Below are positions 993-15,840 of a stretch of DNA of 23,728 nucleotides, in pieces. Location: positions 1-23,728 of IMG/VR virus record IMGVR_UViG_3300020726_000019, one strand, 5' to 3'. Under the pieces are notes generated by a model. It ran no database searches. It was not told the DNA's origin and worked only from the letters and a program-made list of their open reading frames with translations. How positions within the stretch are numbered: the first letter of the stretch is position 1; the number at the start of each line of letters is the position of its first letter. The translations under genes were made by a program, and so were the position numbers. Origin of the DNA: a virus.

Positions 993-1010
993 ACCGACTA
1001 AATGGTCGGT
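993..1010 (+). promoter_or_regulatory. Small inverted repeat just upstream of a ribosome binding site
   Basis: ACCGAC (993-998) and GTCGGT (1005-1010) form a perfect 6-bp stem around the loop TAAATG. The stem abuts GGAGAGG (1011-1017), the ribosome binding site of the phosphoesterase gene at 1026. There is no U-tract, so it is not a typical terminator. It could modulate ribosome access or RNA stability. This is one of only two real intergenic gaps in the rightward cluster (954-1025); I see no convincing promoter in it. Confidence 0.35.
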
Positions 1011-1025
1011 GGAGAGGTAGACCGC

Positions 1026-1766
1026 ATGAAGAAGATCGTAGTACTAAGCGACATCCAATACCCATACCACGACCCTAAAGCGATCAAGACCGTTATTGAC
1101 TTTGTTAAGCATGAGAAGCCAGATGAACTATGGTGCGTAGGAGATGAGCTTGACGCTCCTCAGCCAAGTCGTTGGAACAAAGGAATGCGTGGAGAATACA
1201 ATGACACGCTACAAGATGACATAGATGGCTTGCATGACTTAATGCTCGACTTCCGTATCGCCCTTGGTTGGAATAAGAAGTTTGTAATTCAACGCAGCAA
1301 CCATACGGATCGCATCGAGACGTACATCAACAAGTACGCTCCTGCCCTTAATAGTCTTCGTAGTACTAAAGTCGAAAAGCTTATCGGTTATGATGAGCTT
1401 AAGATCCAATACCTTCACGGGTTCAAGGAGCTTCTCCCCGGATGGGTAATGGCACATGGAGATGAAGGTCGCTCCGTCCAGACTCCCGGCAGCACAGCTA
1501 TGAGCCTTGCGAAGAAACTTGGCAAGAGCGTTGTATGCGGGCACACTCATAAGCTCGGCTTGCAACACGAAACTACCGGACTCAATGGAGATACCAATAC
1601 TATCTTCGGGCTTGAGGTCGGTCACCTTATGGATATTAAGCAGGCATCCTACCTTACAAGTGGTATCGCTAACTGGCAGCAAGGTATCGGTATCTTGGTT
1701 GAACATAACCGAAAGGTTACACCCTATGCAGTACCTATTGTCAAGGGAGAAATCCAACTTCCATGA
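1026..1766 (+). CDS. Calcineurin-like metallophosphoesterase, 246 aa
   Basis: This is a dimetal phosphoesterase of the calcineurin-like fold. The motifs appear in order: SDIQYPYHD (residues 8-16, a variant of the usual DxH, with D9 and a displaced H15), GD (39-40), NH in RSNHTDR (92-93, the GNH motif with Ser for Gly), AHGD (143-146) and GHTH (172-175). The altered first motif is the oddest point. Substrates in this family include phosphodiesters, nucleotides and phosphoproteins, so the target cannot be assigned. ATG 1026 is preferred because GGAGAGG (1011-1017) sits eight bases upstream; a start at 1002 would add eight residues across that site. The stop overlaps the next start as ATGA (1763-1766), which suggests translational coupling. 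Confidence 0.85.
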   Translation: MKKIVVLSDIQYPYHDPKAIKTVIDFVKHEKPDELWCVGDELDAPQPSRWNKGMRGEYNDTLQDDIDGLHDLMLDFRIALGWNKKFVIQRSNHTDRIETYINKYAPALNSLRSTKVEKLIGYDELKIQYLHGFKELLPGWVMAHGDEGRSVQTPGSTAMSLAKKLGKSVVCGHTHKLGLQHETTGLNGDTNTIFGLEVGHLMDIKQASYLTSGIANWQQGIGILVEHNRKVTPYAVPIVKGEIQLP

Positions 1767-2455
1767 AGCAAGACGATAGCTGGGTAGAGGAATACTCCGA
1801 GATGGTCTCAAAACTGGCTCAGGAGTACAAGAGACGCTATTACGTCTTAGAGATCAATGACATTAAGCAAGAGATGTTTATGTGGTTTGTAAGCCATCCT
1901 CGCAAGTTTAAGGAGTGGCAGTCATACCCAGAGAAAGAGCGTGAAAAGCTGATTGCTAAGTCGCTTCGCAACGCTGCGCTCAAGTACTGCGAAAGAGAGA
2001 AAGCCAAGATCATCAAATACGACTTATCTGATCTGTACTACTACGACACCTCGGTAGTCGAGGCATTTTTACCAAGCATTATCCAAGAATCCTATGAGAT
2101 GCCAGCCAAGATCCAAGACCTGAACTCTAAGTTCGGTGGTGGGGGAGAGGTAAGCGATGGCATGAACTGGCTCGTACTACGGGCTGACATTGCCAAGGCG
2201 TTCTACGCACTCTCAGAGGCTAAGCAGAACATCCTACGACTTGCCTTTGGCAAGGAGCATGGGGACTGGAAAGCACTATCAGAGACTCTAGCAACGACAC
2301 CTGACGGTGCTCGCATGAAAGTCCAGCGTTCGCTGGCATCACTTGTACAACACCTAGGAGGATGGAAACCTTACGATGACCAAGACAACCAAGAGCAAGT
2401 CGGAGATGAAGCGAGTGGCAGTGCAGAACCAAGACAAGCCGAAGCCGAAGAATAA
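1763..2455 (+). CDS. Sigma-factor-like DNA-binding protein, 230 aa
   Basis: The layout is like a reduced sigma-70 family protein. Residues about 30-83 contain INDIKQEMFMWF and KSLRNAALKYCEREKAK, resembling region 2 helices with the DxxQE pattern. Residues about 148-196 form a helix-turn-helix block (ALSEAKQNILRLAF, then GDWKALSETL, then PDGARMKVQRSLASL) like region 4, in which the last helix reads promoter DNA. The C-terminal 30 residues are acidic and disordered-looking. Phage sigma-like proteins redirect host RNA polymerase to phage promoters, so late-operon activation is a plausible role, by inference. The -10-melting residues are not clearly conserved, so it might be a non-sigma HTH regulator. 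It is coupled to the upstream gene by ATGA and overlaps the next gene by 80 bases. Confidence 0.6.
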   Translation: MKQDDSWVEEYSEMVSKLAQEYKRRYYVLEINDIKQEMFMWFVSHPRKFKEWQSYPEKEREKLIAKSLRNAALKYCEREKAKIIKYDLSDLYYYDTSVVEAFLPSIIQESYEMPAKIQDLNSKFGGGGEVSDGMNWLVLRADIAKAFYALSEAKQNILRLAFGKEHGDWKALSETLATTPDGARMKVQRSLASLVQHLGGWKPYDDQDNQEQVGDEASGSAEPRQAEAEE

Positions 2456-3146
2456 CAACATCATCGTCGCTTGGTGCGACGGTGGCTCGGTAGACGGCAA
2501 GTTTGCTGAAGGTCTGGTCTATTCGATCCTAGCTGGCAATGTACCTATTCGATCTGCCATGCGTGTGCAGGGTAATCAGATCGGACGTCAGCGTCAGAAC
2601 GCCTTTGATTACTGGTATGATTACACAGACTTTGACTGGATCCTCTGGATCGACTCAGACATCGTGGTAACCCCAGAGGTACTACAGAAGCTCTGGAATG
2701 AGGCAGATCCTGTAGCACGTCCGGTGATCTCCGGTACCTACTTCATCTCCAAGGAGAACGAGCAGGCACTGATGACGCCATTCCCATCTCTCTTCTCATG
2801 GACCGAGGACCCTTACAAGCTTGCCTATGTACATCCACTCCCAGTTAATTCTCTTGTTCGTGTCGGTGCTGCTGGCTTTGGCTTGGTGCTCATGCACCGC
2901 AATGCTGCTAAGCAGATGCGAGAGAAACTTGGCGATACGCCGTTCTTCAATGAGACTGGCGTTGGTGACAAGTTCGTATCTGAAGACATCAACTTCTTCC
3001 GACTCATGCGAGAAGCAGAAGTGCCACTCTACGCACACACCGGTGCAGTAGTACAGCACATGAAGCGCTTTTCCTTTGACGTTGACTTCTACAAGTTGTT
3101 CTGGGACAACGAGGAGCGTAAGAATGCTGATCGACCAGTCGATTGA
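2376..3146 (+). CDS. GT-A glycosyltransferase (family 2-like), 256 aa
   Basis: The protein shows the GT-A pattern. Residues 87-98 read DWILWIDSDIVV, where DSD (93-95) is the DxD motif that binds the divalent metal and nucleotide-sugar phosphates. SED (202-204) fits the catalytic-base position before an INFF helix, and H221/H228 could supply the late metal-ligand histidine. The N-terminus has a basic stretch (KPKPKNNN) before the first strand IIVAWCDGG. It could glycosylate DNA bases, virion proteins or host surface sugars; the sequence does not decide. AGGAGG at 2356-2361 is 14 bases from ATG 2376, rather far; ATG 2409 is an alternative start that would shorten the overlap with the sigma-like gene. 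The 3' end overlaps the next gene by 23 bases. Confidence 0.75.
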   Translation: MTKTTKSKSEMKRVAVQNQDKPKPKNNNIIVAWCDGGSVDGKFAEGLVYSILAGNVPIRSAMRVQGNQIGRQRQNAFDYWYDYTDFDWILWIDSDIVVTPEVLQKLWNEADPVARPVISGTYFISKENEQALMTPFPSLFSWTEDPYKLAYVHPLPVNSLVRVGAAGFGLVLMHRNAAKQMREKLGDTPFFNETGVGDKFVSEDINFFRLMREAEVPLYAHTGAVVQHMKRFSFDVDFYKLFWDNEERKNADRPVD

Positions 3147-3333
3147 TTTCTCCTTTGATGGAGAGATACCTACCTTTGCCTGTATCTGCGGATCGGCAAT
3201 GTTCAAAATTACCGTAATGTGGGACGAAGACACTCGTGCAGTGGGCTGGTATGACCTGCTGCAGGAGTGTGCCATGTGCGGTGCTACATCTACCGCACCC
3301 ACGCCTATAGATGAAGGATTTGATTGTGCCTAA
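3124..3333 (+). CDS. Small Cys-rich, zinc-ribbon-like protein, 69 aa
   Basis: I chose ATG 3124 because GAGGAG (3111-3116) is seven bases upstream; the longer in-frame reading from 3076 lies wholly in the glycosyltransferase gene. The product has two cysteine pairs, C20-x-C22 and C49-xx-C52 (FACICGS and ECAMCGA), separated by a beta-rich stretch (MFKITVMWDED). This spacing suits one bound zinc. Small zinc-ribbon proteins of this kind are common in actinobacteriophages, and most have no known role. It sits between the glycosyltransferase and a second zinc-ribbon gene and overlaps both, so the three are co-translated. Confidence 0.75.
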   Translation: MLIDQSIDFSFDGEIPTFACICGSAMFKITVMWDEDTRAVGWYDLLQECAMCGATSTAPTPIDEGFDCA

Positions 3334-3493
3334 CTACGACTTTAAGTGCGAGAAGTGTGGGTCCACCATTGAGGTGTACATGAACTTCGGCGAGTCTACA
3401 TTGCCGGTTTGTTGCCAAACCTCCATGACCAAAGTATTCTCCGCTGTACCAATCGTGTTCAATGGAACAGGGTTCTACAAGACCGGAGGATGA
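3326..3493 (+). CDS. FmdB-like zinc-ribbon protein, 55 aa, GTG start
   Basis: The sequence from GTG 3326 reads MPNYDFKCEKCGSTIEVYM, matching the N-terminus of the FmdB/CxxC-CxxC putative regulatory family (usually MPxYxYxCxxCG). This decides the start: AAGGA (3314-3318) is seven bases upstream, whereas the ATG at 3311 would add five unrelated residues. C8 and C11 form the first zinc knuckle. The second knuckle is odd: it reads CC (29-30), not CxxC, so metal binding may be altered. The C-terminus (VFSAVPIVFNGTGFYKTGG) carries the family's usual 'I.F.GsGFY.T' ending. The biochemical role of the family is not settled. It overlaps the previous gene by eight bases. Confidence 0.82.
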   Translation: MPNYDFKCEKCGSTIEVYMNFGESTLPVCCQTSMTKVFSAVPIVFNGTGFYKTGG

Positions 3494-3494
3494 C

Positions 3495-3629
3495 ATGTCA
3501 TCAGACTTAATGGGCAGTACAGCAGTAATGAACTCAATTCCAACACCAACTGAAAAAGACTACGTTCTCGCCAAGGCTTACCTTGAGAAGCGTGGACATG
3601 AAGACATCATCGAAATGCTCGGTCTATGA
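3495..3629 (+). CDS. Hypothetical protein, 44 aa
   Basis: ATG 3495 follows GGAGGA (3485-3490), and the frame ends at TGA 3627-3629, overlapping the WhiB start as ATGA. The product begins MSSDLMGSTAVMNSIPTPT and ends in one amphipathic helix (EKDYVLAKAYLEKRGHEDIIEML). It has no cysteines or membrane segment. The strong ribosome site and tight placement between two genes support that it is real. Function is unknown; coupling to WhiB raises the possibility of a partner protein, but that rests on position alone. Confidence 0.75.
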   Translation: MSSDLMGSTAVMNSIPTPTEKDYVLAKAYLEKRGHEDIIEMLGL

Positions 3630-3874
3630 GCCGTCGAGAGAATCTCTGGAGAGATGAAGCGTCTTGCTATAAAGAGGGAATTGATACCGAGGAATTTTTT
3701 CCTGAAGTAGGAGAAACCGTACACAAGACAATCGTCCAGCTCTGCAAGAGCTGTCCGGTTAAAGCAGAATGCTTAGCCTATGCCGTATCTATTCCAGAAC
3801 TGCACGGTTACTGGGCTGGAACGTACTTCCGGGACAGATACAAACTACGTAAGCAGTTACAGACTGTTAAGTAG
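3626..3874 (+). CDS. WhiB-family iron-sulfur transcriptional regulator, 82 aa
   Basis: The four conserved cysteines are present: C14, C40, C43 and C49, in the form C...CxxC-x5-C, which holds a [4Fe-4S] cluster in WhiB-like proteins. The following GYWAGT (61-66) is a variant of the G[VI]WGG turn, and a basic tail follows (RDRYKLRKQ, 69-77). Known family members bind the principal sigma factor's region 4 and alter host promoter use; phage versions (for example WhiB of phage TM4) can repress a host whiB gene. The length of 82 aa is normal for the short phage form. It is the last gene before a terminator and is coupled by ATGA to the 44-aa gene. This is the best host marker in the window and points to an actinobacterium. 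Confidence 0.92.
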   Translation: MSRRENLWRDEASCYKEGIDTEEFFPEVGETVHKTIVQLCKSCPVKAECLAYAVSIPELHGYWAGTYFRDRYKLRKQLQTVK

Positions 3875-4943: not shown

Positions 4944-5252
4944 CTAGACGGTAGGTGCTGGTGTCTCTGGAAGCGGATTAGCCGCTGCCACAGCCTGTGC
5001 TGCTGCTACAGGAGCAGGAGTAACCGCTGTTGCGAACTGCTTGTACGCCTTCATAAAGGCGATAGCGTCCTTGGTGTCCTTGTACTTATTCCAAAATGTT
5101 CCGAGGATAGGACCGAAGGTAGCAAGGGCTGCTGCCCATGCAATGTGCTTGGCTTCTGATCCGTGACCGTCAACGATTGCTGCTGTCTCGGCTGGGACGA
5201 TTGCCATAAGGTAGTGCTTGACTACCGCTTCTATTTTGCTTACGTTGCTCAT
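4944..5252 (-). CDS. Ala-rich small protein, possible holin-like, 102 aa
   Basis: The start is ATG 5252, with AAAAGGA about 11 bases upstream on the minus strand. Residues about 8-27 (EAVVKHYLMAIVPAETAAIV) and 34-54 (AKHIAWAAALATFGPILGTFW) are Ala-rich and moderately hydrophobic; the second could cross a membrane. The tail (about 72-102) is Ala/Pro/Thr/Val-rich and probably disordered. Similar short proteins in which a hydrophobic pair carries the pattern 'hyLmAivPA..AA' occur beside lysins in aquatic actinophages, from memory. Its place at the end of the lysis cassette suggests a holin or virion decoration role. It has no recognised domain. Confidence 0.72.
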   Translation of the reverse strand: MSNVSKIEAVVKHYLMAIVPAETAAIVDGHGSEAKHIAWAAALATFGPILGTFWNKYKDTKDAIAFMKAYKQFATAVTPAPVAAAQAVAAANPLPETPAPTV

Positions 5253-5400
5253 ATTTTTGTTTGTCCTTTTCTAGCGCTATTGGATAACAGTCTGGACAGT
5301 AAACCATCCAGAGCCTTAATTGTATCGCTCCGGCTACCCCACATCGGAAGCAGTGGGCGTGTGTCAGGACTTTAGTGGGGTTGGGATTGTACCTTGGCAA
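5170..5400 (-). CDS. Candidate zinc-ribbon protein with TTG start, 76 aa
   Basis: This open frame fills the 119-base gap between the amidase stop and the next gene. It encodes a clear treble-clef-like pattern, HCFRCG then YCPDCYP (CxxC-x14-CxxC), with no stops. There is no ATG upstream of the cysteines. TTG 5400-5398 (inside the amidase 3' end, with GGGA about nine bases upstream) or CTG 5367-5365 could start it. The C-terminal 26 residues are polar and overlap the Ala-rich gene by 83 bases. The cysteine pattern exactly in the gap argues for coding; the weak start and long overlap argue against. A +1 frameshift from the amidase is a third option. Confidence 0.42.
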   Translation of the reverse strand: MPRYNPNPTKVLTHAHCFRCGVAGAIQLRLWMVYCPDCYPIALEKDKQKYEQRKQNRSGSQALPYGNRPSRDSSNR

Positions 5401-5914
5401 GATACTCAATCCATGGGAAGTTAGTTCCCGGATCGGTATGCCCACCAGCAATGTGCTTAGCCAAGGTGATGTCGATGTGACCACAGAAGCCAGACTTGCC
5501 AGCAAGGATGTCAGCCGGGGTTAGCTTGACGATAGGAATGCCGTGACGATGAGCGATGTCTGCTGCTAGCTTTGCGCTAAGCGCTAGTTCAGCAAGTGAG
5601 TAATGGTCGTGCCAATCTGCTTCGCTTTGTGCTGCTAGTCCTGCGTGTTCGATAGAGATAGATTCTTGGTTAAGCTCAAAATCATCTACTGCCCAAGCTG
5701 TGTTTTCCTCGAGAACAGACTGGTAGATCTCTGAGTTGTCTACCATGTAGTGAGCAGATGCTTGCGGGCTAGATGGCCCAGCAAACCATTGTGCTACCTG
5801 ATAGGCGCGTCCGTTGCTCTCTGGGGTTTCCATTGTGTGAACGACGATGAGGCGTGGGGTCTTGCCACCACGTCCTGCTGTGAAGTGTTTAGCTCCGATA
5901 AAAGGATAGGTCAC
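5372..5914 (-). CDS. N-acetylmuramoyl-L-alanine amidase endolysin (Amidase_2 fold), 180 aa
   Basis: The protein cleaves the amide bond between N-acetylmuramic acid and L-alanine of peptidoglycan to release phage. It has the Amidase_2/PGRP pattern: IVVHTME with H26, SAHYMVD (53-59), NQESISIEHAG (82-92), and the C-terminal metal site GGHTDPGTNFPW with H159 and D161 (157-168). These fit the His-His-acid/Cys zinc site of the family. It is essentially a single catalytic domain; no cell-wall-binding domain follows. The start is GTG 5914, overlapping the upstream stop as GTGA. It lies directly after a second hydrolase gene, so the two are co-translated lysis functions. It could alternatively act within the virion. 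Confidence 0.9.
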   Translation of the reverse strand: MTYPFIGAKHFTAGRGGKTPRLIVVHTMETPESNGRAYQVAQWFAGPSSPQASAHYMVDNSEIYQSVLEENTAWAVDDFELNQESISIEHAGLAAQSEADWHDHYSLAELALSAKLAADIAHRHGIPIVKLTPADILAGKSGFCGHIDITLAKHIAGGHTDPGTNFPWIEYLAKVQSQPH

Positions 5915-6399
5915 TGGTACACCAGTCTTTCTGCTAGATCACCGGGGGTTGTCAAGTCTGCGTTTTTGTTGCAGAGGTTCTCACCGATTGCTTCGTAGGC
6001 TTCAGCTGTTAGTTCAGAGCAGATGTAGCCCTTGGTAGCCTGAGCCCAGCGGTACATAAGTTTGGTCTTAGCGAGAATCTTGAGTCCTAGGATACGAAGT
6101 GCAATGTTGCCGATGACGATGAAGTTGTAAGGCTGTCCGATCTTGGACATAGCAAAGTCAGCAATGACATAACGCTCTTTGCTATCTAACTCTTCGTGTT
6201 GGTTCCAAGCGATCAGGTTGTACTTAGATACAGGGCTAAGGATTACTCCTTTGGGAGTTGCCTCAACAATGTTCCCATCTCCAACATAGATAAACACATG
6301 GTTCCACCGAGAGACAGTTCCGACTTGGATGAGTCGAGCAAAAAGTCCAGTGCTTCTAATGACACCGTAGTCTCCAATTCTTGGTTTGTAATCATTCAT
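5911..6399 (-). CDS. Permuted papain-like (YiiX/NlpC-P60-type) hydrolase, 162 aa
   Basis: The order of motifs is that of a circularly permuted NlpC/P60 fold. It starts with RIGDYGVIRSTG, then WNHVFIYVGDGNIVEATP with the likely catalytic H34, and only near the end GYICSEL with the likely catalytic C127. In YiiX/LRAT-like enzymes the His precedes the Cys this way. The substrate may be peptidoglycan peptides or amides; its place beside an amidase supports a lysis role. ATG 6399 is preferred over TTG 6411 because GGGGAA sits about six bases upstream. It overlaps the upstream membrane-protein gene by eight bases and the amidase by four. The middle hydrophobic part (FIVIGNIALRILGLKIL) may be a membrane-contacting helix. 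Confidence 0.78.
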   Translation of the reverse strand: MNDYKPRIGDYGVIRSTGLFARLIQVGTVSRWNHVFIYVGDGNIVEATPKGVILSPVSKYNLIAWNQHEELDSKERYVIADFAMSKIGQPYNFIVIGNIALRILGLKILAKTKLMYRWAQATKGYICSELTAEAYEAIGENLCNKNADLTTPGDLAERLVYQ

Positions 6400-6775
6400 G
6401 TAGTTCCCCAATCATGTCGATCTCACGCTCTTCGAGCTTGCGGATATATTCAAGGGCTTGCTGGATTTCAGGTAACATCTTGTACATAGCACGGATGATC
6501 TGGGCATCACGCTTGGTCTGACCAATCATGGCGATACCGATGACCAGTTCTACGGTTACTGCTAGCCATGAAGCTAGGTTCATCCATTTGATGTAGGCAT
6601 GGGTGTCGGTGAACCATGTAGGTTGGCACCACCAGACTAAGGTGACAGTTGACCAAAGGATGACGAAGTACCAGTTACGGATAATGCCTTGGATTTTCCA
6701 TGAAATCTGCTCGCTAAAGGTGAGCACATCTCCAGTAGTCTCGTGGATGTACTTACGCTTGAACGGGTTAGTCAT
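6392..6775 (-). CDS. Two-helix membrane protein in lysis cassette, 127 aa
   Basis: Residues about 36-49 (YFVILWSTVTLVWW) and 66-84 (NLASWLAVTVELVIGIAMI) are hydrophobic helices joined by a short polar loop. After them comes a long charged helix (QTKRDAQIIRAMYK, then EIQQALEYIRKLEERE). The N-terminus is charged and basic (PFKRKYIHE). The helix pair followed by a cytosolic coil recalls DUF1003-like membrane proteins, but I cannot assign it firmly. Beside two cell-wall hydrolases and another membrane protein, holin or antiholin is the leading idea. It overlaps the upstream gene by eight bases. Confidence 0.75.
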   Translation of the reverse strand: MTNPFKRKYIHETTGDVLTFSEQISWKIQGIIRNWYFVILWSTVTLVWWCQPTWFTDTHAYIKWMNLASWLAVTVELVIGIAMIGQTKRDAQIIRAMYKMLPEIQQALEYIRKLEEREIDMIGELHE

Positions 6776-7085
6776 GGTACCTCGCCTTCATTACCTCGAC
6801 GTCGGTACGGATTACTTGCTGGTTTTCGACCAATGCATCTACCTTGTTAATCAAGCCGGTCTTGCCATCGTTGTATAGGGCGTACTCAATACGGCTAGTA
6901 CGTCGATCCATCTCATGGATGATGGTGAAAAGTTTTTCGTTCTCTTCCTTGATGGTCTTGGTAAGGTAGTGTCTAAAGAAGACACCGAGGGCAGTGGCAA
7001 TACCAGCAAAGACGAAAAAGTAGTAGTAGATAGTGCCAGAGAAGTTGACCTGATTGACAAGTGCGTCGCTGGTTGCCTTGAGCAT
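6768..7085 (-). CDS. One-helix membrane protein with coiled tail, 105 aa
   Basis: Residues about 18-37 (TIYYYFFVFAGIATALGVFF) form one transmembrane helix, with a short N-terminal tail and a basic side after it (RHYLTKTIKEENEK). The rest is predicted helical and coiled (FTIIHEMDRRTSRIEYAL, later DALVENQQVIRTDVEVM). One N-terminal helix plus a cytosolic coil occurs in some actinophage holin-like proteins. It is the first gene of the lysis cassette, three bases after the large tail gene, and its ribosome site is weak, so it probably relies on coupling. Confidence 0.72.
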   Translation of the reverse strand: MLKATSDALVNQVNFSGTIYYYFFVFAGIATALGVFFRHYLTKTIKEENEKLFTIIHEMDRRTSRIEYALYNDGKTGLINKVDALVENQQVIRTDVEVMKARYHD

Positions 7086-7088
7086 CTG

Positions 7089-9098
7089 CTATACCGTTCT
7101 GATAGTTGCGATCAACAAGCCACCAAAGTTGGTAAGACGTCGATCTGGGGCTTTTACGTTGATGAAGCTAAGAGACTCGATAAGGCATTGCTGAGTTTCT
7201 CCTGTGCGGAAGTCTTGGAAGGTGACCACGTCACCGGCATCTTCGATCTGCTCAAGGGCAAAGAGCTTGTCTCGAGCTTGACCTTCATAGCCAAGTTCAC
7301 CTGAGTACTTATCCTTCTCGATGTCGTAGCACATCAAAGGAATCTTGATGGTACGAGTACGAGGGGTAGCAGGTACAGCCTTAAGTTGGTATCCCTTGAG
7401 GATAGGAGACAGCCCGGAATCAGTAGCATCTCGGTTCAACTGGAACCGCAGTCCCATGGCAGCTTGCGCTCCTACTGGCTGAGAGATGGTTGCTTCTGGA
7501 GTACCCGTGTTGTTGTCGTAAGTAATAACTGTGTAGTAGTTGCCCATCTCATCAAAGGTCTGGATGGTTACAGAACCCTTGGTAACTCCACCTAGCGTCT
7601 CGCTGGTCTGGGTTACGCCTACATCTGCATGTCCAAGGACACGCTTGAAGTTCTTAGGTTCGAGCATGTTGTAGCGGATGTAACCAGTATCCAGCCAACC
7701 AGATGGGTAAACCTCTGTTGTAGATTGCACCCATAGTCCAAGATTGCCGATGACTGGGGTAGAGGTTGTGGCATCTGTAGCACCGATGAAGCAGAGCTGA
7801 TTGGTGGTACCAAAGAATGCGATGTCTGTAACTACGCCATCTTGAAGCGTTTCAGCGTAAGCATCCTGAGCAATGGCGTACATCAGGTTGTCGATCGAGT
7901 CTGTAAGATCGATCTTCATAGAACCAGAGTAGGAATCCACGCCGTCAGAAACAGTACCAGCAGCCCAAACAAAGCCATCCTGTGCAGCAAAGCCAGTGAC
8001 GCGCATTGGCTGGCTGTTAAGGATCTGACCGTAGGTGATGTCACCTGTCGTAGCATCGAGTGTGCCGATGCGTACGCCCTTGTTGGTACCGATACAGATG
8101 TAGGTTCCTAGGTGTACATACATAGAGAGCACTTGCTCGCCTGCTGGAAGCTGTGCTGCTACCTGTCCTACGGACAAGACAGGCATAGCGCCAGTGTTAT
8201 CAAGGACGAACTTGTAGATTGCTGAGTTAGCACCGGCATAACCAGATGCGTAGATCGCTACGCCACCTTCTGAGATGTCAGTCCACTTCCAGTGAGGGTT
8301 AGGATGTGCGTAGACAGGGGTAGGCAGGGATGCGCCAGTGCCTGTGATCTGATAAACGTTGTTGTTAATAGCGGCCACTAGACGCTGCTTAGCCCATCCA
8401 AGTCTGGATGAGGTAATGCTAGAAGATGCTGGGGCTGGGTAAAGCGCTACAGCAGAGGTAGATAGATCCATGATCTGCTGGTAGATGTGTCCGTTGTCGA
8501 TGTAGTAGACATTGGTACCATCGTTAGCGATGCTTTGGATTGGGTAGGAAGTAGAGGCAGCGGTAACTAAGGTGGACATGGCAGATGTTGTGCCGTCAGT
8601 AACCTTGATGTTGCTGTCCAAGACGAGGAGGCGGTCGTTACCACCGATGACTACCGACTCAAGCTGTATAGCATTGGTCGTAGTCTGAGTCTGGTTCATG
8701 CGGTTGAGGATTGTTACCTGACCAAACTCCATGACGTTGAGTCCTAGAGACTCCTTGAAGCGGTACGAGTTAGATGCCAAGGAAACCGAGAATGGGTTGG
8801 CAAATGGGTCGTAGAATGTGATGCCATTGCCTGCGTGAAATGAAGACTGGCTACGAAGCCACCAGTTAGTAAGTGACTGCTCACCCGGATCACGCTGAGT
8901 GTCATACTGGTTCTTACGGAACTGCGTAGTGTCACGCTCATAAGGATGCTCGGCTGTAGGGTTGACGAGGAATGGAACGCCACCGATAGCTACATCGTAG
9001 TCAATGTCCGTGTTCTGCCATGTCTGACCTAGAACTACACCAATGTCTACCGCAATGGACCGTTCGGCGCGTCCTTCGGTGATGTCAAAACCCGACAT
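7089..9098 (-). CDS. Large tail structural protein, 669 aa (nozzle or hub candidate)
   Basis: AGAGGAGGAACT directly precedes ATG 9098, an excellent ribosome site. The N-terminus (about 1-120) has TNWWLRSQSSFHAGNGITFYDP, a conserved-looking adaptor segment. Residues about 140-440 consist of repeated beta strands with recurring patterns such as DGTNVYYIDNGHIYQQ, SEGGVAIYASG and QDGFVWAAGT, which suggests a beta-propeller. The C-terminus (about 590-669) has a compact domain with DVVTFQDFRTGETQQCLIES. Beta-propellers occur in the short-tail nozzle of T7-like phages, so nozzle is plausible; a minor tail or hub protein of a long tail is the alternative. Position between fibre and lysis genes fits either. 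No enzymatic motif is seen. Confidence 0.7.
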   Translation of the reverse strand: MSGFDITEGRAERSIAVDIGVVLGQTWQNTDIDYDVAIGGVPFLVNPTAEHPYERDTTQFRKNQYDTQRDPGEQSLTNWWLRSQSSFHAGNGITFYDPFANPFSVSLASNSYRFKESLGLNVMEFGQVTILNRMNQTQTTTNAIQLESVVIGGNDRLLVLDSNIKVTDGTTSAMSTLVTAASTSYPIQSIANDGTNVYYIDNGHIYQQIMDLSTSAVALYPAPASSSITSSRLGWAKQRLVAAINNNVYQITGTGASLPTPVYAHPNPHWKWTDISEGGVAIYASGYAGANSAIYKFVLDNTGAMPVLSVGQVAAQLPAGEQVLSMYVHLGTYICIGTNKGVRIGTLDATTGDITYGQILNSQPMRVTGFAAQDGFVWAAGTVSDGVDSYSGSMKIDLTDSIDNLMYAIAQDAYAETLQDGVVTDIAFFGTTNQLCFIGATDATTSTPVIGNLGLWVQSTTEVYPSGWLDTGYIRYNMLEPKNFKRVLGHADVGVTQTSETLGGVTKGSVTIQTFDEMGNYYTVITYDNNTGTPEATISQPVGAQAAMGLRFQLNRDATDSGLSPILKGYQLKAVPATPRTRTIKIPLMCYDIEKDKYSGELGYEGQARDKLFALEQIEDAGDVVTFQDFRTGETQQCLIESLSFINVKAPDRRLTNFGGLLIATIRTV

Positions 9099-9119
9099 AG
9101 TTCCTCCTCTAAAAGAAAA

Positions 9120-9142
9120 AGCCCCGCCAGTTAAGCGGGGCT
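9120..9142 (-). terminator. Rho-independent terminator abutting the 669-aa gene
   Basis: On the minus strand, AGCCCCGC and GCGGGGCT pair in a perfect 8-bp stem (9135-9142 with 9120-9127) around a 7-base loop (9128-9134). A U-rich run (TTTTTCTTTT, 9120-9111) follows. Almost at once comes the AGAGGAGG ribosome site and ATG 9098. No space is left for a promoter between terminator and gene, so the 669-aa gene must depend on read-through, antitermination or RNA processing. Confidence 0.85.
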
Positions 9143-9146
9143 GGTA

Positions 9147-9224
9147 TTACAACCAATCGTTTATCTCAAAAAACTCTACGCCGTCCTCAACGGTACGGCG
9201 TAAAGGGATTATCTCATCAAGCAT
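9147..9224 (-). CDS. 25-aa mini-gene coupled to fibre accessory gene
   Basis: The previous gene's TAA overlaps this ATG as TAATG (9226-9222), and the frame ends at TAA 9149-9147, five bases before the terminator stem. The product reads MLDEIIPLRRTVEDGVEFF followed by EINDWL. The coding-like composition, coupling and exact fit between gene and terminator favour a real small gene. The phrase 'VEDGVEFF' resembles the start of some larger phage proteins, so it could also be a truncated remnant. Function is unknown. Confidence 0.55.
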   Translation of the reverse strand: MLDEIIPLRRTVEDGVEFFEINDWL

Positions 9225-9640
9225 TAAGCAGTTGGAGCCGCAGGATCTGCTGGCAACTCAACAACTTGCCAGTTAAGGTCTGCTTCTACCCATTCATATA
9301 TTCTTCCATCAGTAGGCATAGGGGTAGGTGCCTCCCAGTGACATGTAGTTTCATTAAGTTTCCATGATGGATAAGGAGATGGGTGAATAAATGCATCCCG
9401 CGTTACATCATAAGTCATTCCCGGACCAGCATAATTTTTGCGGAAAGCAACGCCTTCGTCTGGATGCCCGTCTTGACCGTAATGAACTCCACCTTTTGTA
9501 TTGTAAGAAGTTTGAAGCCAAGTACCGCCAAGACCTAAATCTGTAGCAAGGTAATCTTGCCCTCTGTGTTCATGTTCATCGGGAATAACAAGAACGCGTA
9601 TTACTGTATTGTTTGAATCTATTTCAGCAAAATGTGCCAT
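9224..9640 (-). CDS. Phage fibre-associated protein (aquatic-phage family), 138 aa
   Basis: The product begins MAHFAEIDSNNTVIRVLVI and contains DLGLGGTWLQTSYN, AFRKNYAGPGMTYD, RDAFIHPSPYPSWKLNE and PTPMPTDGRIYEWVEADLNW. These blocks match a family I recall in many marine and freshwater phages, often near tail-fibre genes, with no proven role; a fibre assembly or capping role is inferred from position. ATG 9640 is chosen because AGGAGG (9653-9648) lies seven bases upstream; ATG 9646 would leave almost no spacing. Trp and aromatic content is high, suggesting a carbohydrate- or protein-binding surface. It follows the glycine-rich adhesin and is coupled to the 25-aa mini-gene. Confidence 0.78.
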   Translation of the reverse strand: MAHFAEIDSNNTVIRVLVIPDEHEHRGQDYLATDLGLGGTWLQTSYNTKGGVHYGQDGHPDEGVAFRKNYAGPGMTYDVTRDAFIHPSPYPSWKLNETTCHWEAPTPMPTDGRIYEWVEADLNWQVVELPADPAAPTA

Positions 9641-9642
9641 TA

Positions 9643-10827
9643 TCATCCTCCTACTTGTGAACGAGTGTATCGAATAATAACTCCGCCAGAGCCGCCATTG
9701 CCAGCCACATAACTGCCAGAAGAGCCACCACCAAAACCGTTTGTACCGCCACCAGCGCCGTATGAGCCATTACCCCCATTACCAGCTCCTGTATATCCAG
9801 CATTAGAAGTTCCTCCGTAGCCCGAAACAGAACCTCCCGAACTATACCCAGCGCCTGCTCCACCACCAAGAATTGCTCCTAAAGGTAATGTACCCCAAGG
9901 ATTAGAGCCGGAGCCGCCAGAGCCGCCATGACCAGAGTTTGCTGAAGCAGTAGCAGAACCATCTCCACCAGCACCGCCAGCACCACCACCGCCGCCAGTA
10001 CCCATTTGACTGTAGTTACCTGCATATTGATAACCGCGACCGCCGTTGTATCCTTGACCTGAGGTACCTGTACCTCCCGATGCATAAGCAGGTGCAGTGC
10101 TTGGAACTGAGCCACCACCACCAGAGCCACCGTTATCTACAGATGGCGTTCCGCTGTTGTAATAACCACCAACTCCACCACCAGTAGGGCTTGAGTAACC
10201 CGTAGCAAAAGATGAAGAACTTCCGTCTGTTCCCTGAGTAGTAATAGTTCCCGTTCCTCCGCCACCAACGGTTATTACATAACTACCAGTAGTTAATGTT
10301 TGAGTAGAGTATAAGTAGTAACCACCTGCACCGCCTCCGCCACCCGGTCTAGCATTGTTATTAGAACCACCAGCACCACCGCCAGCAAAAATAAATATGT
10401 CACCAACAATGGAACCATTAGTAACGCTAATTGTTTGACTGCTTCCATAATAACTGTAGTAATATGTTGCATCAGAATACCTTGTACCTAATGTAATTGA
10501 TGGCAATGCAATTACTGTTACGCTTCCTGATGAAGTGGAAAGCGGACCAGTACCAGTCGCATTAGCCGCTGCAACTTGAAATGTATAAGAAGCGCCACTA
10601 GTTAAACCGTTAACAACAATAGGACTAGTTCCAGATGTATTGCTAAAAGACCCCGGAGTTGAAATTGCTTTGTAATATGCAACTGGTCCACCAGTTGTTG
10701 ACGAGTTGCCAGTAAAGGCAACACTTACGCCTTGACCAGTTCCATTATCGGTTCCGGTTACAGAAGTTGGAATGTTGTTAGGAATGTCTACGACTTTACC
10801 TATGTTAGGTGATACATGTGATGGCAT
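9643..10827 (-). CDS. FN3 plus glycine-rich tail adhesin, 394 aa
   Basis: Residues about 18-105 form a fibronectin type III domain (FTGNSSTTGGPVAYYKA, then LTSGASYTFQVAAANATGTG). A short aromatic stretch (DATYYYSYYGSSQTI) and FIFAGGGAGG follow. Residues about 145-394 are dominated by glycine runs (GGGGGAGG, GGGGGAGGAGGDG) and end in GGSGGVIIRYTR. This ending and Gly pattern are common in phage tail-tip adhesins, where polyglycine-II helices pack into a sandwich whose loops bind receptors. Host recognition at the particle tip is therefore likely. The start ATG 10827 has no good ribosome site and seems coupled to the gene three bases upstream. Base composition of this gene group is lower in G+C than its neighbours. 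Confidence 0.8.
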   Translation of the reverse strand: MPSHVSPNIGKVVDIPNNIPTSVTGTDNGTGQGVSVAFTGNSSTTGGPVAYYKAISTPGSFSNTSGTSPIVVNGLTSGASYTFQVAAANATGTGPLSTSSGSVTVIALPSITLGTRYSDATYYYSYYGSSQTISVTNGSIVGDIFIFAGGGAGGSNNNARPGGGGGAGGYYLYSTQTLTTGSYVITVGGGGTGTITTQGTDGSSSSFATGYSSPTGGGVGGYYNSGTPSVDNGGSGGGGSVPSTAPAYASGGTGTSGQGYNGGRGYQYAGNYSQMGTGGGGGAGGAGGDGSATASANSGHGGSGGSGSNPWGTLPLGAILGGGAGAGYSSGGSVSGYGGTSNAGYTGAGNGGNGSYGAGGGTNGFGGGSSGSYVAGNGGSGGVIIRYTRSQVGG

Positions 10828-10830
10828 GGG

Positions 10831-11322
10831 TTAAGCCGCGATTCCGTAGAGAGTTACTGTGCCACCCGCGCTAAATGCTGTACCACCTTGGGTGGTAAAA
10901 TTTATACTTGTAATTGCAGAAGTATTATTCCAAAATCCGTAAATTGGACCTGCATAAGTGCTAGTTGCAACCTGACCGTATCCATTGACTGTTTTAGGAA
11001 CGGAAGATAAAACATCATTTATAACAAGATAACCTATATTTGTTTGTCCTGAATAATTATAACTATTTAATATAATTCCATTAGTGGCAGCCAAACTGCC
11101 ACCAATACCGGTAGAAATTGATGAATAACCGCTTGTTACTCCATTAAATTGAATCAATGGGCTATCTGCCGAAGCGTTGAATACACTATTCCAAACTATC
11201 ATTAAAGTTTTGTAACCTGATAAACTAGTAATAACTGTATTAGATGTTGTAGCAGTAACGGTTATTGTCGCAATGGTTTGCCAAGGGTTAATAGTGGTTG
11301 TGCTGACTGTATTAGCTGCCAT
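10831..11322 (-). CDS. Beta-rich tail protein, 163 aa
   Basis: I recognise no named domain. The product is rich in Thr, Ser, Ile and Asn with alternating hydrophobic residues (ATITVTATTSNTVITSL, LYGIAA at the end), typical of phage beta-sandwich or jelly-roll fibre parts. It contains YKTLMIVWNSVFNASAD and YGFWNNTSAITSINFTTQGG, patterns seen in tail-tip proteins that display on a fibre. It starts at ATG 11322, overlapping the upstream stop as TAATG. The sampled DNA within it is only 32% G+C (19 of 60 bases, 11041-11100). A fibre or receptor-binding accessory is the best guess. Confidence 0.7.
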   Translation of the reverse strand: MAANTVSTTTINPWQTIATITVTATTSNTVITSLSGYKTLMIVWNSVFNASADSPLIQFNGVTSGYSSISTGIGGSLAATNGIILNSYNYSGQTNIGYLVINDVLSSVPKTVNGYGQVATSTYAGPIYGFWNNTSAITSINFTTQGGTAFSAGGTVTLYGIAA

Positions 11323-11651
11323 TATGATAACTCGCTTCCGAATGCGTTGAATGACAAAGTAGCAGATGATGCATAAATGCTGAGAACATCTGTATTGGCT
11401 AAAGTAATACCTAGCGTAAGAGTTGTAGTATCAGATGCTGGTACCGTTGCTCCATACACTATGTAGTGCTTAGCCACTAGGCTTGCGCCTGCTGGTTGAA
11501 CAGCAATACGATATGTGGCTGCAGAAGATGCTTGATTGCAAATGGTGATAGTTGATACAACTGCACCGCTGGCTGCACCACAAGTGTAAAGTGTGGTCTG
11601 TGTTGTGGCTGACGGATTGTTTTGTGCCAGCACCTTGTATGTTGTTGTCAT
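11322..11651 (-). CDS. Small beta-rich tail/virion protein, 109 aa
   Basis: The product has repeated beta patterns (TTLYTCGAASGAVVSTITICNQ, TTTLTLGITLANTDVLSIYAS). This 'vlaq..P......LYT......vvSti.icN.s' layout is frequent in small virion proteins of tailed phages that form single jelly-roll or Ig-like folds; that match is from memory. It starts three bases after the fibre gene stop and is coupled by TAATG to the next gene. The role is probably fibre-tip or baseplate decoration. Confidence 0.75.
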   Translation of the reverse strand: MTTTYKVLAQNNPSATTQTTLYTCGAASGAVVSTITICNQASSAATYRIAVQPAGASLVAKHYIVYGATVPASDTTTLTLGITLANTDVLSIYASSATLSFNAFGSELS

Positions 11652-11654
11652 TAC

Positions 11655-14513
11655 TTATGCTCCCATCAGCATGAAGATTTGAGGGTTAGGGTCGGATGAC
11701 ACTGATGCCCATTGTACACCAGTACCAGTAGATTGTAAGACTTGACCACTCGTACCAGAGGTAGAAGAGGCTGTAAAAGTTCCAGTAAGGGTTGAATTGT
11801 TTAGAGTTGGTGCAGTAAGAGATCCACCCATTTGAGCAAGATCAGTAGTGCCAAAGCAATACCAAATGCTGCCAGAGTAAACAAACGAGTAGTAAGTATT
11901 TACAGGAACTGTGTAAGAAGTTGAAGCAGAGTAAACAGTTCCTGAGATTGAGACTGAGTTAGTTCCACCCTTGATGTTTACTGGATAAGGGGAGATGTTC
12001 TTGATTTGATAGATGCTGCCGTTAAGTGCTGTGGCAGGCAGGGTAATGGTTTGGCTAGCAGTACCAGAAGTACCGTAGATTGTAAACTCGCCTGTGCCAG
12101 CAGTAGCCGTAGCCGAACGAACAGTAAGGCTAGCTGAGATTTCAGGTACCCATGTACCCGGTGTACCTGCTGTAGTGCAGATCCATAGTGTTCCAGTGTC
12201 ATCGATAACAAGATCGCCTACTGCAAAGGTGCCCGATGTAGGAGCGCCTGCTGAGGTAGCGCCAACCAAACGAACCGTGTTGGTAGTAGCACCTGTAAGA
12301 CCAGTAGCAGCGACAGCATTACCTGTTACTGTTCCAGTAGCAGTTAATGATGTACCAGTTGCTGCACCAATGTTAGGTGTTACAAGGGTAGGGCTAATAG
12401 AGAATACTGCTGCGCTTGTACCAGTAGCGGTAGAAGAACCATCATAGAACAGGTTCCAAGCACCAGAGGTGTTGGAGCTGGTAGAAAGCACTGTAGCCAC
12501 AACAGATTGTGATGGGTACAAGGTTGCAAGGTTTGTGCCACCATAAAGGTTGACAGTCACGTTGGCATTGGTGCCAAGGTGCGTGATGTTGGTAAGGTCG
12601 AAATACTCACCGACAGCAAGGGTAGCCGTGTTAGGCAAGACTACTGTGTGGCTGCTATTAGAACCGTTGGCACTAAAGTAGATCTGCTGGTTATCTGAAG
12701 ACGATAGGTTGGTTGTACCGCCAGATACAGATACGTTAGTTAGACCAAAGACTGCATTGCCAATAGTAGGCAAAGTCAAAGTTGGGTTAGTCTGAAGGAC
12801 ATAGTTACCAGTACCTGTGACAGTGCCCGCTGTGACGCTAGTTACACGCCCATAGGCATCCGTTGTCATTGTGCTTGGATGTCCGTAGGTACCGGCTGTA
12901 CCTGCAGTAGCAAGGTTGATGGTAGGAGCAGAACCACCTGTGCTGGTGATGTTACCTGTTGTACCAAGAACGTTAGTTACCGCAGAGGTAGAAGAAATAG
13001 CCGACCATGAGGTTGTGCCAGTGCTGTACACAAACATTGTGTTGTTTGCGCTATTGAAGTATGTAGCACCATTGATAAGGGCATTGCCTTGGTTATCCAA
13101 AGTAGGCGCTGAAGCAAACGATCCTAGGTAATAGGTCTTGTACGTGTTGTAAGTAGCAAGGGAACTAGAAGCAGAAGTTGCAGCGTTTGTGGCTGAGTTA
13201 GAAGCAGCGGTAGCCGAAGCAGCAGCTGAAGTAGCCGATGTTGCAGCAGCCGTAGCAGATGCAGCAGCGCTAGTCGCTGATGTAGCAGCGGCAGTCTGAG
13301 ACAGGGATGCTGAGTTAGCAGATGTCAAAGCAGCTGATGCTGAAGTAGCAGAACTGGTAGCGCTAGTAGCAGCAGACGATGCCGATGTAGCTGCAGAACT
13401 GGCTGAGGTAGCAGCGTTAGCAGCCTGAGTAGTTGCTGTGCCGGCAGAAGTAGCAGCAGTGGTTGCACTAGCAGCAGCGCTTGTGGCGCTGGTTGCTGCA
13501 GCAGTTGCTGAGGCAGCAGCAGATGTTGCTGAAGTTGCAGCAGCAGTTTGGCTAGCAGCAGCAGATGTAGCAGAGGTAGCTGCAGAAGCGGCGCTTGTAG
13601 AAGCGGCTGTAGCAGATCCCAAGATGCTATCTACGTAACCCTTGGTAGTAGCATCGGTAGATGCTGAAGGCGTAGCAAGGTTATTAATCTGATGGGTACC
13701 CATGTTGATAGCACCGGTCATGGTACCGCCAGCCAAAGGAAGTTTGGTTCCTAGGGCAGTGGTAAGAGTGGTGTTGAAGTTAGGGTCATTGTTGATAGCA
13801 GAAGCCAACTCGTTAAGTTGGTTCAGGCTAACTGGAGCACCGTTAACAAGGTTAGTAATCTGAGCGTCTACATAGTTCTTGGTAGCAGCATCTTGTGCAG
13901 ATGCTGGGTCAGCCATGTTATGGATCTGATAACCACCGGCTGCAAGAGCAGATCCCAAGGTACCAGATGCGATAGTAGCGCTAGTCACAGTGGCAGAACT
14001 GACAGTACCGCCATTGATGGTAGGCGATGTCAAAGTTTTGTTGGTCAGAGTCTGGGTACCTGTAAGGGTAACCACAGATGTCGACAATGTATTGGTAGAG
14101 CTGGACAGATCCTTGTTGGTAAGTACCTGTGTGTCGCTATCGCCTACTACGTTACCTGTAAGCCCATGAACTCCTGATGTAGCCACCTCGTGGGTATTGG
14201 CTTCACGAAGGTCACGACCGATAACCATGTGACGGACAACGGCACCAGCTGAGTGATCCTGTGCTGTAGATCCATCCACTGCACGAGTGATTGTGATGTT
14301 ATTGCCAGAGACGGCAGTAATATCTACAATTTCTTCAAGTGATGTATCTGGATCAATAACAATGGTAAAGGTTTGACCCGCTGAGATTGTTACTCCACCA
14401 AGCAAGGTAGTCGCTGAGTTAACAGAGGCTACCGTAGCTGTATCGATAAGAGTAGATGAAAGAGTGGTCTGTTGGGACCGCGAGGAGTACTTACGAGGTG
14501 TCTGGGCTGTCAT
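11655..14513 (-). CDS. Tail fibre with Ala/Ser/Thr repeat stalk, 952 aa
   Basis: The N-terminus (about 22-98) is a small beta domain ending DGSTAQDHSAGAVVRHMV. Next come fibre-type motifs LTNKDLSSSTNT and LTNKTLTSPTINGG (130-169), and two ATKNYVD/TTKGYVD units (about 210-216 and 289-295). Residues about 302-453 are an Ala/Ser/Thr heptad-like stalk. The rest is a long series of beta modules (LATAGTAGTYGHPSTMTTDAYGRVTS, repeated TGT and GAW phrases) ending PNPQIFMLMGA. Trimeric phage fibres often show this order: adaptor, coiled stalk, beta shaft, tip. It would mediate host attachment; the receptor is unknown. AAGG lies upstream of ATG 14513. It is the longest complete gene here and begins nine bases after the adaptor-like gene. 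Confidence 0.88.
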   Translation of the reverse strand: MTAQTPRKYSSRSQQTTLSSTLIDTATVASVNSATTLLGGVTISAGQTFTIVIDPDTSLEEIVDITAVSGNNITITRAVDGSTAQDHSAGAVVRHMVIGRDLREANTHEVATSGVHGLTGNVVGDSDTQVLTNKDLSSSTNTLSTSVVTLTGTQTLTNKTLTSPTINGGTVSSATVTSATIASGTLGSALAAGGYQIHNMADPASAQDAATKNYVDAQITNLVNGAPVSLNQLNELASAINNDPNFNTTLTTALGTKLPLAGGTMTGAINMGTHQINNLATPSASTDATTKGYVDSILGSATAASTSAASAATSATSAAASQTAAATSATSAAASATAAATSATSAAASATTAATSAGTATTQAANAATSASSAATSASSAATSATSSATSASAALTSANSASLSQTAAATSATSAAASATAAATSATSAAASATAASNSATNAATSASSSLATYNTYKTYYLGSFASAPTLDNQGNALINGATYFNSANNTMFVYSTGTTSWSAISSTSAVTNVLGTTGNITSTGGSAPTINLATAGTAGTYGHPSTMTTDAYGRVTSVTAGTVTGTGNYVLQTNPTLTLPTIGNAVFGLTNVSVSGGTTNLSSSDNQQIYFSANGSNSSHTVVLPNTATLAVGEYFDLTNITHLGTNANVTVNLYGGTNLATLYPSQSVVATVLSTSSNTSGAWNLFYDGSSTATGTSAAVFSISPTLVTPNIGAATGTSLTATGTVTGNAVAATGLTGATTNTVRLVGATSAGAPTSGTFAVGDLVIDDTGTLWICTTAGTPGTWVPEISASLTVRSATATAGTGEFTIYGTSGTASQTITLPATALNGSIYQIKNISPYPVNIKGGTNSVSISGTVYSASTSYTVPVNTYYSFVYSGSIWYCFGTTDLAQMGGSLTAPTLNNSTLTGTFTASSTSGTSGQVLQSTGTGVQWASVSSDPNPQIFMLMGA
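13209..13553 (-). repeat. Two identical 31-residue repeats with different codons in fibre stalk
   Basis: Residues 321-351 (13461-13553) and 405-435 (13209-13301) are identical, both starting SQTAAATSATSAAASAT. At DNA level 20 of 31 codons differ, including five Ser positions that switch between AGC/AGT and TCN. Between the copies lie further Ala/Ser/Thr units. The arrangement is a protein-level repeat, not a recent DNA duplication. Confidence 0.85.
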
Positions 14514-14521
14514 CGTCTACC

Positions 14522-15445
14522 TTATCGAGAGTAGTGGGTACGGGTAGGGTAATTAAGCTTCTGCTTCAAGGACTCGTCCTCAAGGCGTTGCTGGTACATC
14601 ATTTGTAGCTGCTTGGTCACATTGATACCTGTGCCATAAGGACGCTTGGAATCGTATTCATCGGCAGCAGCAGAGGTAATAGACATACGTGCTGGATCGA
14701 TAAAGGATGACAAGCGGTAAGTAGCACCGTAGATGATGACATCTCGCATAGAAGATGGAAGGGTGGTTACAGCCTCAAAGTTGTCTGTCTCGTTGACAAG
14801 GAGCGATGGCTGCTTGGCATAGACGCAGTGAACTGTACGACCCGGAAGGATGTTGTCATAAAGTGAGACAGTCTTGGCATAGCCCGGGGTGAATCCATCA
14901 GGGGATTCAACTGACCAAGTAGCCTGATCTGCTAGCGGATCCCAACGCCATTGGCGAATAGGTAGCCATTCCTTTGTAGGACCAACAGTCTGCCATGACA
15001 TGTGCAAGATCTGGGTTGCCTCTGAAGGGATCTGGTAGGTAGTACGAGATGCCAAGAAGCTGAAGTCTGTAGAGCCAACTCCGAATACCTTTGGGTATAC
15101 AGCGGAGATGGTGTCGTTGATCGCACGGGTAACTGCTACGCGTGGGAAGGTCGGGGTAACAATAACCTGAGCATTGGCTGAGTGTGCAGCAGCGGTTGTA
15201 CCGTTGTAGCCACGTCCGAAAGGAGCGATGGTCACGGTGTTAGCCTGACGATCGTAAGCATCTACCCACATCAGTTCGTCATCGATCTCGATGATTCCTG
15301 TGCCGATGTTCTGAGTATCGCCTACATAAATGAGTAGGTCTCCAGAGGTGCAAGCCTGAGTCAGGTAAGTAGAGCGATCCTGACGATAGGTGAAGCCTTG
15401 GATGTTAAGTTTAGTATCGTTGATTAGGTCAGCAAGAGTTGTCAT
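14522..15445 (-). CDS. Adaptor or tail-tube-like structural protein, 307 aa
   Basis: Residues about 24-97 form a small beta domain (DLLIYVGDTQNIGTG, IEIDDELMWVDAYD, RGYNGTTAAAHSANAQVIV). A helix follows (RVAVTRAINDTISAVYPKVF, 102-121), and the rest mixes beta segments and helices (LPSSMRDVIIYGATYRLSSF) with a long charged C-terminal helix (QLQMMYQQRLEDESLKQKL). A helical core with a beta insert and a flexible tail suits a head-to-tail adaptor (T7 gp11-like or gp6-like), which fits its place before the fibre gene. I cannot name the family firmly. It is coupled to the upstream gene by TAATG. Confidence 0.7.
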   Translation of the reverse strand: MTTLADLINDTKLNIQGFTYRQDRSTYLTQACTSGDLLIYVGDTQNIGTGIIEIDDELMWVDAYDRQANTVTIAPFGRGYNGTTAAAHSANAQVIVTPTFPRVAVTRAINDTISAVYPKVFGVGSTDFSFLASRTTYQIPSEATQILHMSWQTVGPTKEWLPIRQWRWDPLADQATWSVESPDGFTPGYAKTVSLYDNILPGRTVHCVYAKQPSLLVNETDNFEAVTTLPSSMRDVIIYGATYRLSSFIDPARMSITSAAADEYDSKRPYGTGINVTKQLQMMYQQRLEDESLKQKLNYPTRTHYSR

Positions 15446-15786
15446 TAGGAGGCAATAGTCCTTAATGCGGTGACCGCTTCGACGTAAGTTGATGGGGAAC
15501 CAATGGTTCCAATTCCAGAAATCTCAGCAAGTACTGAGTTCATTTCACGATAATCTTTAGGAGGGCGGGTAGCGCTGACCTTGTAGTTCAGGGAAGCGAT
15601 TACGCCTGTGCCTGCTGGGGCACCTGTCCAGTTGTTGCAAGCACCTTGGACATCTAGGTATGCAGCGGGACTTGGGTAAGTACCACCATTAGCTAGGCGG
15701 TTAAATTCATCTCGGATAGAAGAGCCGGGGAAACCGTAGAGCGTATAGGTTGTGCCGTTATAGACGGCTGTACCATAGGTAGCCAT
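15445..15786 (-). CDS. Small structural protein, 113 aa
   Basis: ATG 15786 is preceded by AAAGG about seven bases upstream. The N-terminus is beta-rich (YGTAVYNGTTYTLYGFPGSS), followed by FNRLANGGTYPSPAAYLDVQ and a middle SLNYKVSATRPPKDYREMN; the C-terminal third is one helix (AVTALRTIAS). In aquatic actinophages, proteins with the 'YPSP..YLDvqGACN.W.G..' pattern lie beside head-tail genes; I recall this but no role is known. It is probably a connector accessory. Confidence 0.72.
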   Translation of the reverse strand: MATYGTAVYNGTTYTLYGFPGSSIRDEFNRLANGGTYPSPAAYLDVQGACNNWTGAPAGTGVIASLNYKVSATRPPKDYREMNSVLAEISGIGTIGSPSTYVEAVTALRTIAS

Positions 15787-15809
15787 TACTTACCTTTCTT
15801 GTTAAGAAG

Positions 15810-15834
15810 CCCTGCCCCCGAATAGGAAGCAGGG
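15810..15834 (-). promoter_or_regulatory. 10-bp hairpin in intergenic gap, possible weak terminator or processing site
   Basis: On the minus strand a 10-bp stem (15825-15834 with 15810-15819, two G-U pairs) closes a 5-base loop. The following RNA is only mildly U-rich (CTTCTT), so full termination is unlikely. The gap is flanked by a 13-base direct repeat, ATTACTTACCTTT on the plus strand, at 15785-15797 and 15840-15852. The first copy covers the ribosome site of the 113-aa gene; the second covers the stop of the 60-aa gene. Confidence 0.5.
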
Positions 15835-15840
15835 ATTCGA

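Follow-up and report, generated by a model that had tools for sequence, protein, structure and literature searches.

Introduction

The locus described here raises the question whether a sigma-like factor and a WhiB protein, both encoded by a phage, take over the host RNA polymerase together, and whether the late genes of the phage are switched on in this way. It lies in a virus contig of 23,728 nucleotides (IMG/VR record IMGVR_UViG_3300020726_000019), the whole of which is termed the window here. A preliminary description made from the sequence had pointed to a 230-amino-acid (aa) sigma-like protein and an 82-aa WhiB protein in one overlapping gene set. It had proposed a two-part takeover of host RNA polymerase that possibly switches on the leftward late unit. 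To our knowledge, late-gene switching in these actinophages is not settled. SPO1 gp28 and T4 gp55 are phage sigma factors of middle or late genes that redirect the host core RNA polymerase; the window protein would resemble them in its proposed mode of working.

The pairing of sigma and WhiB is not new, because WhiB, a sigma-70 factor and a glycosyltransferase have already been reported together in the Planktophila phages LanE43AprE7 and LanE43AprF5 (E7 and F5 below), with the suggestion that they help in host transcription control (Kavagutti et al., ISME J 2023; PMC10202952). Mycobacteriophage TM4 likewise encodes a WhiB, which is cited in that paper as a transcriptional inhibitor of host WhiB2 (Rybniker 2010). 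New here are a fixed order of the cassette, a link to the mycobacteriophage 'sigma-K' proteins and a candidate late promoter. A limited search of the open-access literature found no publication on the cassette order, on the link between metallophosphoesterase and sigma genes across actinophages or on the late motif, and a literature search on gp53/sigma-K in mycobacteriophages and on metallophosphoesterase plus sigma found no paper either. From gene family, conservation and layout we arrive at the tentative reading, held with slightly less than even confidence, that the phage sigma directs core RNA polymerase to the late promoter while WhiB acts in parallel on the host sigma factor SigA.

Results

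Judged by sequence and model, the 230-aa protein is a two-domain, sigma-70-like protein that resembles the extracytoplasmic function (ECF) sigma factors. PHROG 354 ('sigma-K factor') matches residues 8-199 (E 9.9e-12) and the NCBIfam family sigma70-ECF (TIGR02937) residues 7-197 (E 1e-7, under the curated cut-off). The latter family is matched by 50 of the 51 aligned relatives, at best with 2e-9, and Sigma70_r4 by seven of the 51 and by the homologue of phage E7 (E 5e-7). The assignment rests on family evidence because single-sequence homology is weak; a PDB sequence search with the 230-aa protein gave nothing usable. The AlphaFold model (predicted local distance difference test score, pLDDT, 72.7) was built on the 51-sequence alignment and has region-2-like helices, a linker and a four-helix region-4-like domain, in this order. 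The best 50 PDB matches listed by Foldseek for the model were sigma factors or RNA polymerase initiation complexes, with no other fold among them. In the presumed core-binding helix, which is region 2.2-like, D33 and Q36 are invariant over the 51 sequences and I34 and E37 nearly so; further along region 2, S67-L68-R69-N70 and E77/K80 are invariant and the LRN...EREKAK helix is strongly conserved. The same holds for the motif DGARMKVQR of the helix-turn-helix (HTH) in region 4. The signature DLYYY..VVEaFLP of the linker is unusual and among the most conserved segments of the family; its mycobacteriophage counterpart is YKGSYxYSVxEVKxLL. Profile matches, model and conservation thereby bear out the region-2-like and region-4-like HTH segments that the preliminary description had seen, and the protein shares sequence match, fold order and conserved regions with the sigma-70 superfamily.

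The 82-aa protein is matched by the Pfam family WhiB (E 7.7e-14), and its best solved relatives are Streptomyces venezuelae WhiB and Mycobacterium tuberculosis WhiB1, WhiB3 and WhiB7. It has the four cysteines, the CxxC spacing and the turn of the WhiB-like family (G[IV]W[GA]G, in the window protein GYWAG). The cysteines, which had been noted before, are kept in 49 of 50 aligned WhiB rows, and the remaining row resembles a wrong-frame open reading frame (ORF). Across these 50 sequences F24, F25 and W63 are conserved in 88%, 96% and 92%, respectively. They correspond to F31, F32 and W76 of WhiB3, each of which is required for binding to region 4 of SigA, and in the LRHPS dock of SigA His516 is essential for binding of WhiB3 (PMC10245118). 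Because these WhiB3-equivalent aromatics are conserved, the phage WhiB is a plausible candidate binder of SigA region 4. The region 4 of the phage sigma ends in LGGW[RK]PY where SigA has LRHPS, and an invariant histidine is missing. Since the phage sigma lacks the WhiB-docking motif of SigA, it is more likely, as far as sequences can tell, that WhiB acts on host SigA and not on the phage sigma.

The genes overlap end to end in the order metallophosphoesterase (MPE), sigma, glycosyltransferase, small ORF, zinc ribbon, 55-aa ORF and WhiB. The proposal of one overlapping set holding sigma and WhiB was thus correct, and the chain also holds the MPE, glycosyltransferase and zinc-ribbon genes, on which the earlier description was silent. 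In the phage group of the window the two genes are always together: the MPE gene lies immediately upstream of sigma in all 82 related contigs that carry sigma, and every one of the 59 contigs that are long enough (1.9 kb of sequence or more) has WhiB downstream of sigma and on its strand. Of the 68 contigs showing both sigma and WhiB, all have a zinc-ribbon gene between the two. Phages E7 and F5 also have both genes (sigma 33% identical; terminase 60% identical in E7). E7 departs from the cassette in two ways: its zinc-ribbon and WhiB genes are encoded opposite to sigma, and an MPE was not found.

The MPE-sigma pair reaches beyond this group, and was kept in phages of Mycobacterium, Gordonia, Rhodococcus and Streptomyces in all loci compared (L096, L098-L112 and L280); in two of them a small ORF separates the genes, and otherwise the MPE is directly upstream. 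The window family is homologous to the sigma-K family of cluster A mycobacteriophages (PHROG 354/PF25684, 'sigma-K factor' or 'Gene 53 protein'; hhalign E 1.4e-10), which is of the same length class and also has the MPE upstream, but differs in the absence of WhiB from the genomes tested and in a poorly conserved region 4. The sigma of Streptomyces phage Manuel matches that of the window with E 1e-9. Manuel and FlowerPower, both Beephvirinae, have the MPE-sigma pair beside WhiB and a terminase 43-48% identical; unlike in the window, their WhiB is divergent and on the other side of the MPE. In these two phages (L111 3001-4462 in Manuel, L280 4710-6194 in FlowerPower) MPE and sigma form a two-gene island opposite to the flanking strand, beside the divergent WhiB. 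In 17 further phage records with the sigma family, WhiB was found in two, F5 and Manuel, and in none of the other 15. It tends to stay near sigma and is not an obligate partner, because outside the group the MPE-sigma pair is mostly without it.

Two other explanations have to be weighed at this point. If WhiB and the phage sigma bound each other and formed a phage-specific holoenzyme, one would understand why their genes stay close in three arrangements (on the same strand, converging from opposite strands in E7, and divergent in Manuel and FlowerPower). Given that the dock of SigA is not found in the phage region 4 and that sigma occurs without WhiB in those 15 records, we regard this as very improbable, and a mutual action of the two proteins is not supported. 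The other explanation takes the 230-aa protein for a sigma-derived regulator that binds DNA or RNA polymerase (a decoy, an anti-SigA factor or a partner of the MPE) and no longer initiates. Related phage phosphoesterases have roles in recombination or host DNA damage: gp47 of Bxb1 acts as a recombination directionality factor, and gp48 of A10ZJ24 is an anti-defence protein that damages host DNA (PMC12287305). The MPE neighbour is present even where no WhiB exists, and it is the linker that is among the most conserved parts, while region 4 is poorly kept in mycobacteriophages. In the group of the window, the region-2 motif and the region-4 HTH are each strongly conserved, which argues against such a loss of function; we consider it unlikely.

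The same phage is also represented by a 37.7-kb contig, G003, whose positions 1239-24966 correspond to the window with 99.96% identity. In G003 a rightward and a leftward unit diverge from a single intergenic region outside the window. In 15 of 15 genomes the strand of the terminase carries, upstream of this gene, one copy of a near-invariant GTTCGTTT-N6-TTTGAACGGATTA or a near match to it, with a TATATAG-like sequence behind it. The terminase of the group was missed by the phrog_2 model and located by tblastn from G003. Phage E7, a distant member of these 15, carries the motif as GTTCGGTTT and TTTGAACGGGTTA, nearly the same as in the window group. An exact-pattern scan of IMG/VR gave at least 120 contigs with the motif, whose terminases are 48-100% identical to the query. 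Among the matches listed, all 115 with enough sequence have it 115-400 bp (median 141) upstream of the terminase; the contigs were chosen by the exact pattern, so that invariance is partly built in and position is not. Behind the motif comes a hairpin with compensatory changes; a column-shuffle control for it yielded zero throughout and is given no weight as evidence. Both sigma and WhiB were found in 15 of 17 contigs selected by the motif, the other two being G036 and one contig of 25.6 kb. We rejected G036 as a counter-example with motif and without sigma or WhiB, as this contig breaks off within the MPE gene, immediately ahead of the expected sigma start. Judged by conservation and place, the motif is the best candidate for a late promoter. 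A promoter scan of this region in G003 is in line with the favoured reading, as its one sigma70-type match is oriented toward the early unit and none toward the late unit, though a single match is a chance-level count.

The Streptomyces relatives have a similar layout upstream of the terminase, with a TATATATAATG element and a GC-rich hairpin at what is apparently the corresponding place, where the GTTCGTTT...TTTGAACGG motif was not found in Manuel and FlowerPower. A second conserved element upstream of the terminase, GACCCCAGGGTTRTTAA, lies between the divergent units in freshwater and Streptomyces phages. It is sometimes a long inverted repeat, as in L213 with TTAAACAGTCT...GGGTC...GACCC...AGACTGTTTAA.

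The motif may also be read without the phage sigma. WhiB on region 4 of SigA could recruit the SigA holoenzyme to a late promoter with a TATA-type -10 element and no -35 hexamer, and the sigma-like protein would then have another role. The SigA-binding residues kept in the phage WhiB are in line with this, as are the TATATA-like late element without a match to the SigA -35 hexamer and the TATATATAATG element in the Streptomyces relatives. On the other side, the sigma protein has a wider distribution among phages than the WhiB beside it. Conservation within the motif is highest in a GTTC...GAAC dyad; we know of no WhiB site of this type, which also counts against a promoter driven by WhiB. We rate this explanation as distinctly unlikely. 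A packaging (cos/pac) or replication site that has nothing to do with either regulator has been considered because contig ends cluster near the motif, some 200 bp upstream of it, and a unique, oriented and dyad-like element adjoining the terminase would suit such a site. The clustered ends share no single base, however, and lie near the edge of the conserved region, a pattern expected of an assembly effect; moreover, a TATA-like stretch and a hairpin come after the motif when it is read in the sense of the late unit. A site of this kind is a possibility that we judge somewhat unlikely.

Table 1. Features of the sigma-WhiB locus and of the candidate late promoter (window coordinates unless another contig is named)
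Feature	Position	Strand	Basis
Calcineurin-like metallophosphoesterase (MPE), overlaps sigma start by 4 bp	1002..1766	+	PHROG 221 E 9.6e-70
Sigma-70-like protein, 230 aa, two-domain (region 2 + region 4)	1763..2455	+	PHROG 354, TIGR02937, AlphaFold, PDB fold search, hhalign
Region-2-like helices, residues 12-84	1796..2014	+	Conservation over 51 sequences, model
Linker with family signature, residues 85-123	2015..2131	+	Alignments
Region-4-like four-helix HTH domain, residues 135-197	2165..2353	+	Model, DGARMKVQR motif, Sigma70_r4
LGGWKPY tail, at the place of the WhiB-docking LRHPS of SigA	2354..2374	+	Sequence comparison
Glycosyltransferase between sigma and zinc-ribbon genes, optional insert	2376..3146	+	PHROG 34859 E 9.5e-93
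Small ORF with CxC and CxxC, possible zinc ribbon, start (ATG 3124) inferred	3124..3333	+	ORF list
FmdB-type zinc ribbon, 60 aa	3311..3493	+	Zn_ribbon_8 E 3e-7, just under cut-off
55-aa ORF, overlaps WhiB start by 4 bp	3462..3629	+	ORF list
WhiB-like protein, 82 aa; C14, C40, C43, C49; F24, F25, W63	3626..3874	+	Pfam, PDB relatives, family conservation
Leftward late unit (endolysin, tail, head genes)	4944..23712	-	PHROGs
Candidate late promoter, outside the window	G003 about 34714-34752; L124 about 16714-16752	-	Motif

The window itself contains the rightward unit (0-4.9 kb) and the leftward unit with the endolysin, tail and head genes (Table 1). Several loci, among them L061, L083 and L095, have no glycosyltransferase at this place. 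The small ORF with CxC and CxxC, for which no Pfam or PHROG family matched, bridges the glycosyltransferase and the zinc ribbon. Possibly the regulatory set has a third member in the zinc ribbon, whose gene invariably separates sigma from WhiB. The host is very probably a freshwater actinobacterium, because the phage group is related by sequence comparison to the cultured Nanopelagicales phages E7 and F5; the presence of WhiB points the same way. Searches with the sigma alignment and the terminase found no prophage or host copy in 84,980 bacterial and archaeal genomes.

Discussion

In the mechanism that we favour, a two-domain ECF-like sigma would be made from the rightward early/middle operon, bind the core RNA polymerase of the host and guide it to one late promoter ahead of the terminase gene, and the leftward head-tail-lysis unit would thereby be switched on. 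WhiB, encoded downstream, would bind region 4 of host SigA and lower or redirect SigA-dependent transcription, in parallel to the phage sigma and not bound to it. Core binding, promoter recognition, the target of WhiB and the timing are steps that we infer; together they would amount to a joint takeover of host RNA polymerase by the two proteins.

Several observations weigh against this mechanism. A Pfam search with the single 230-aa sequence matched no family, and the PDB fold E-values of the model are weak (0.013 at best), for which a flexible joint between the two domains is the probable reason. The mycobacteriophage homologues, with their poorly conserved region 4, are often annotated only as DNA-binding. 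In the promoter scan of the G003 region, the number of sigma70-type matches is at chance level (1 found, 0.8 expected). The TATATATAATG element of the Streptomyces relatives could, by its sequence, be read by SigA with an activator, and the motif could be an operator dyad, a packaging site or a replication element. Motif, sigma and WhiB are co-inherited within one phage group, and no result links sigma to the motif. The late-unit switching proposed earlier is plausible, as a conserved and unique motif lies upstream of the leftward unit.

A wider idea, which we put forward as speculative and rather improbable in its full extent, is that MPE, sigma, zinc ribbon and WhiB form a compact module for takeover of RNA polymerase in freshwater actinophages. 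WhiB would disarm SigA and sigma would fire a dyad-type late promoter with a 5' hairpin, and the MPE-sigma pair would be an unrecognised late regulator of cluster A mycobacteriophages and of their Gordonia, Rhodococcus and Streptomyces relatives. The discovery is modest, since sigma and WhiB together are already in print. However, the facts added here make the question of the late switch testable: they name a candidate factor and a nearly invariant candidate promoter, and they point to cultured phages for the tests, namely E7 and F5, the cluster A mycobacteriophages and the Streptomyces phages.

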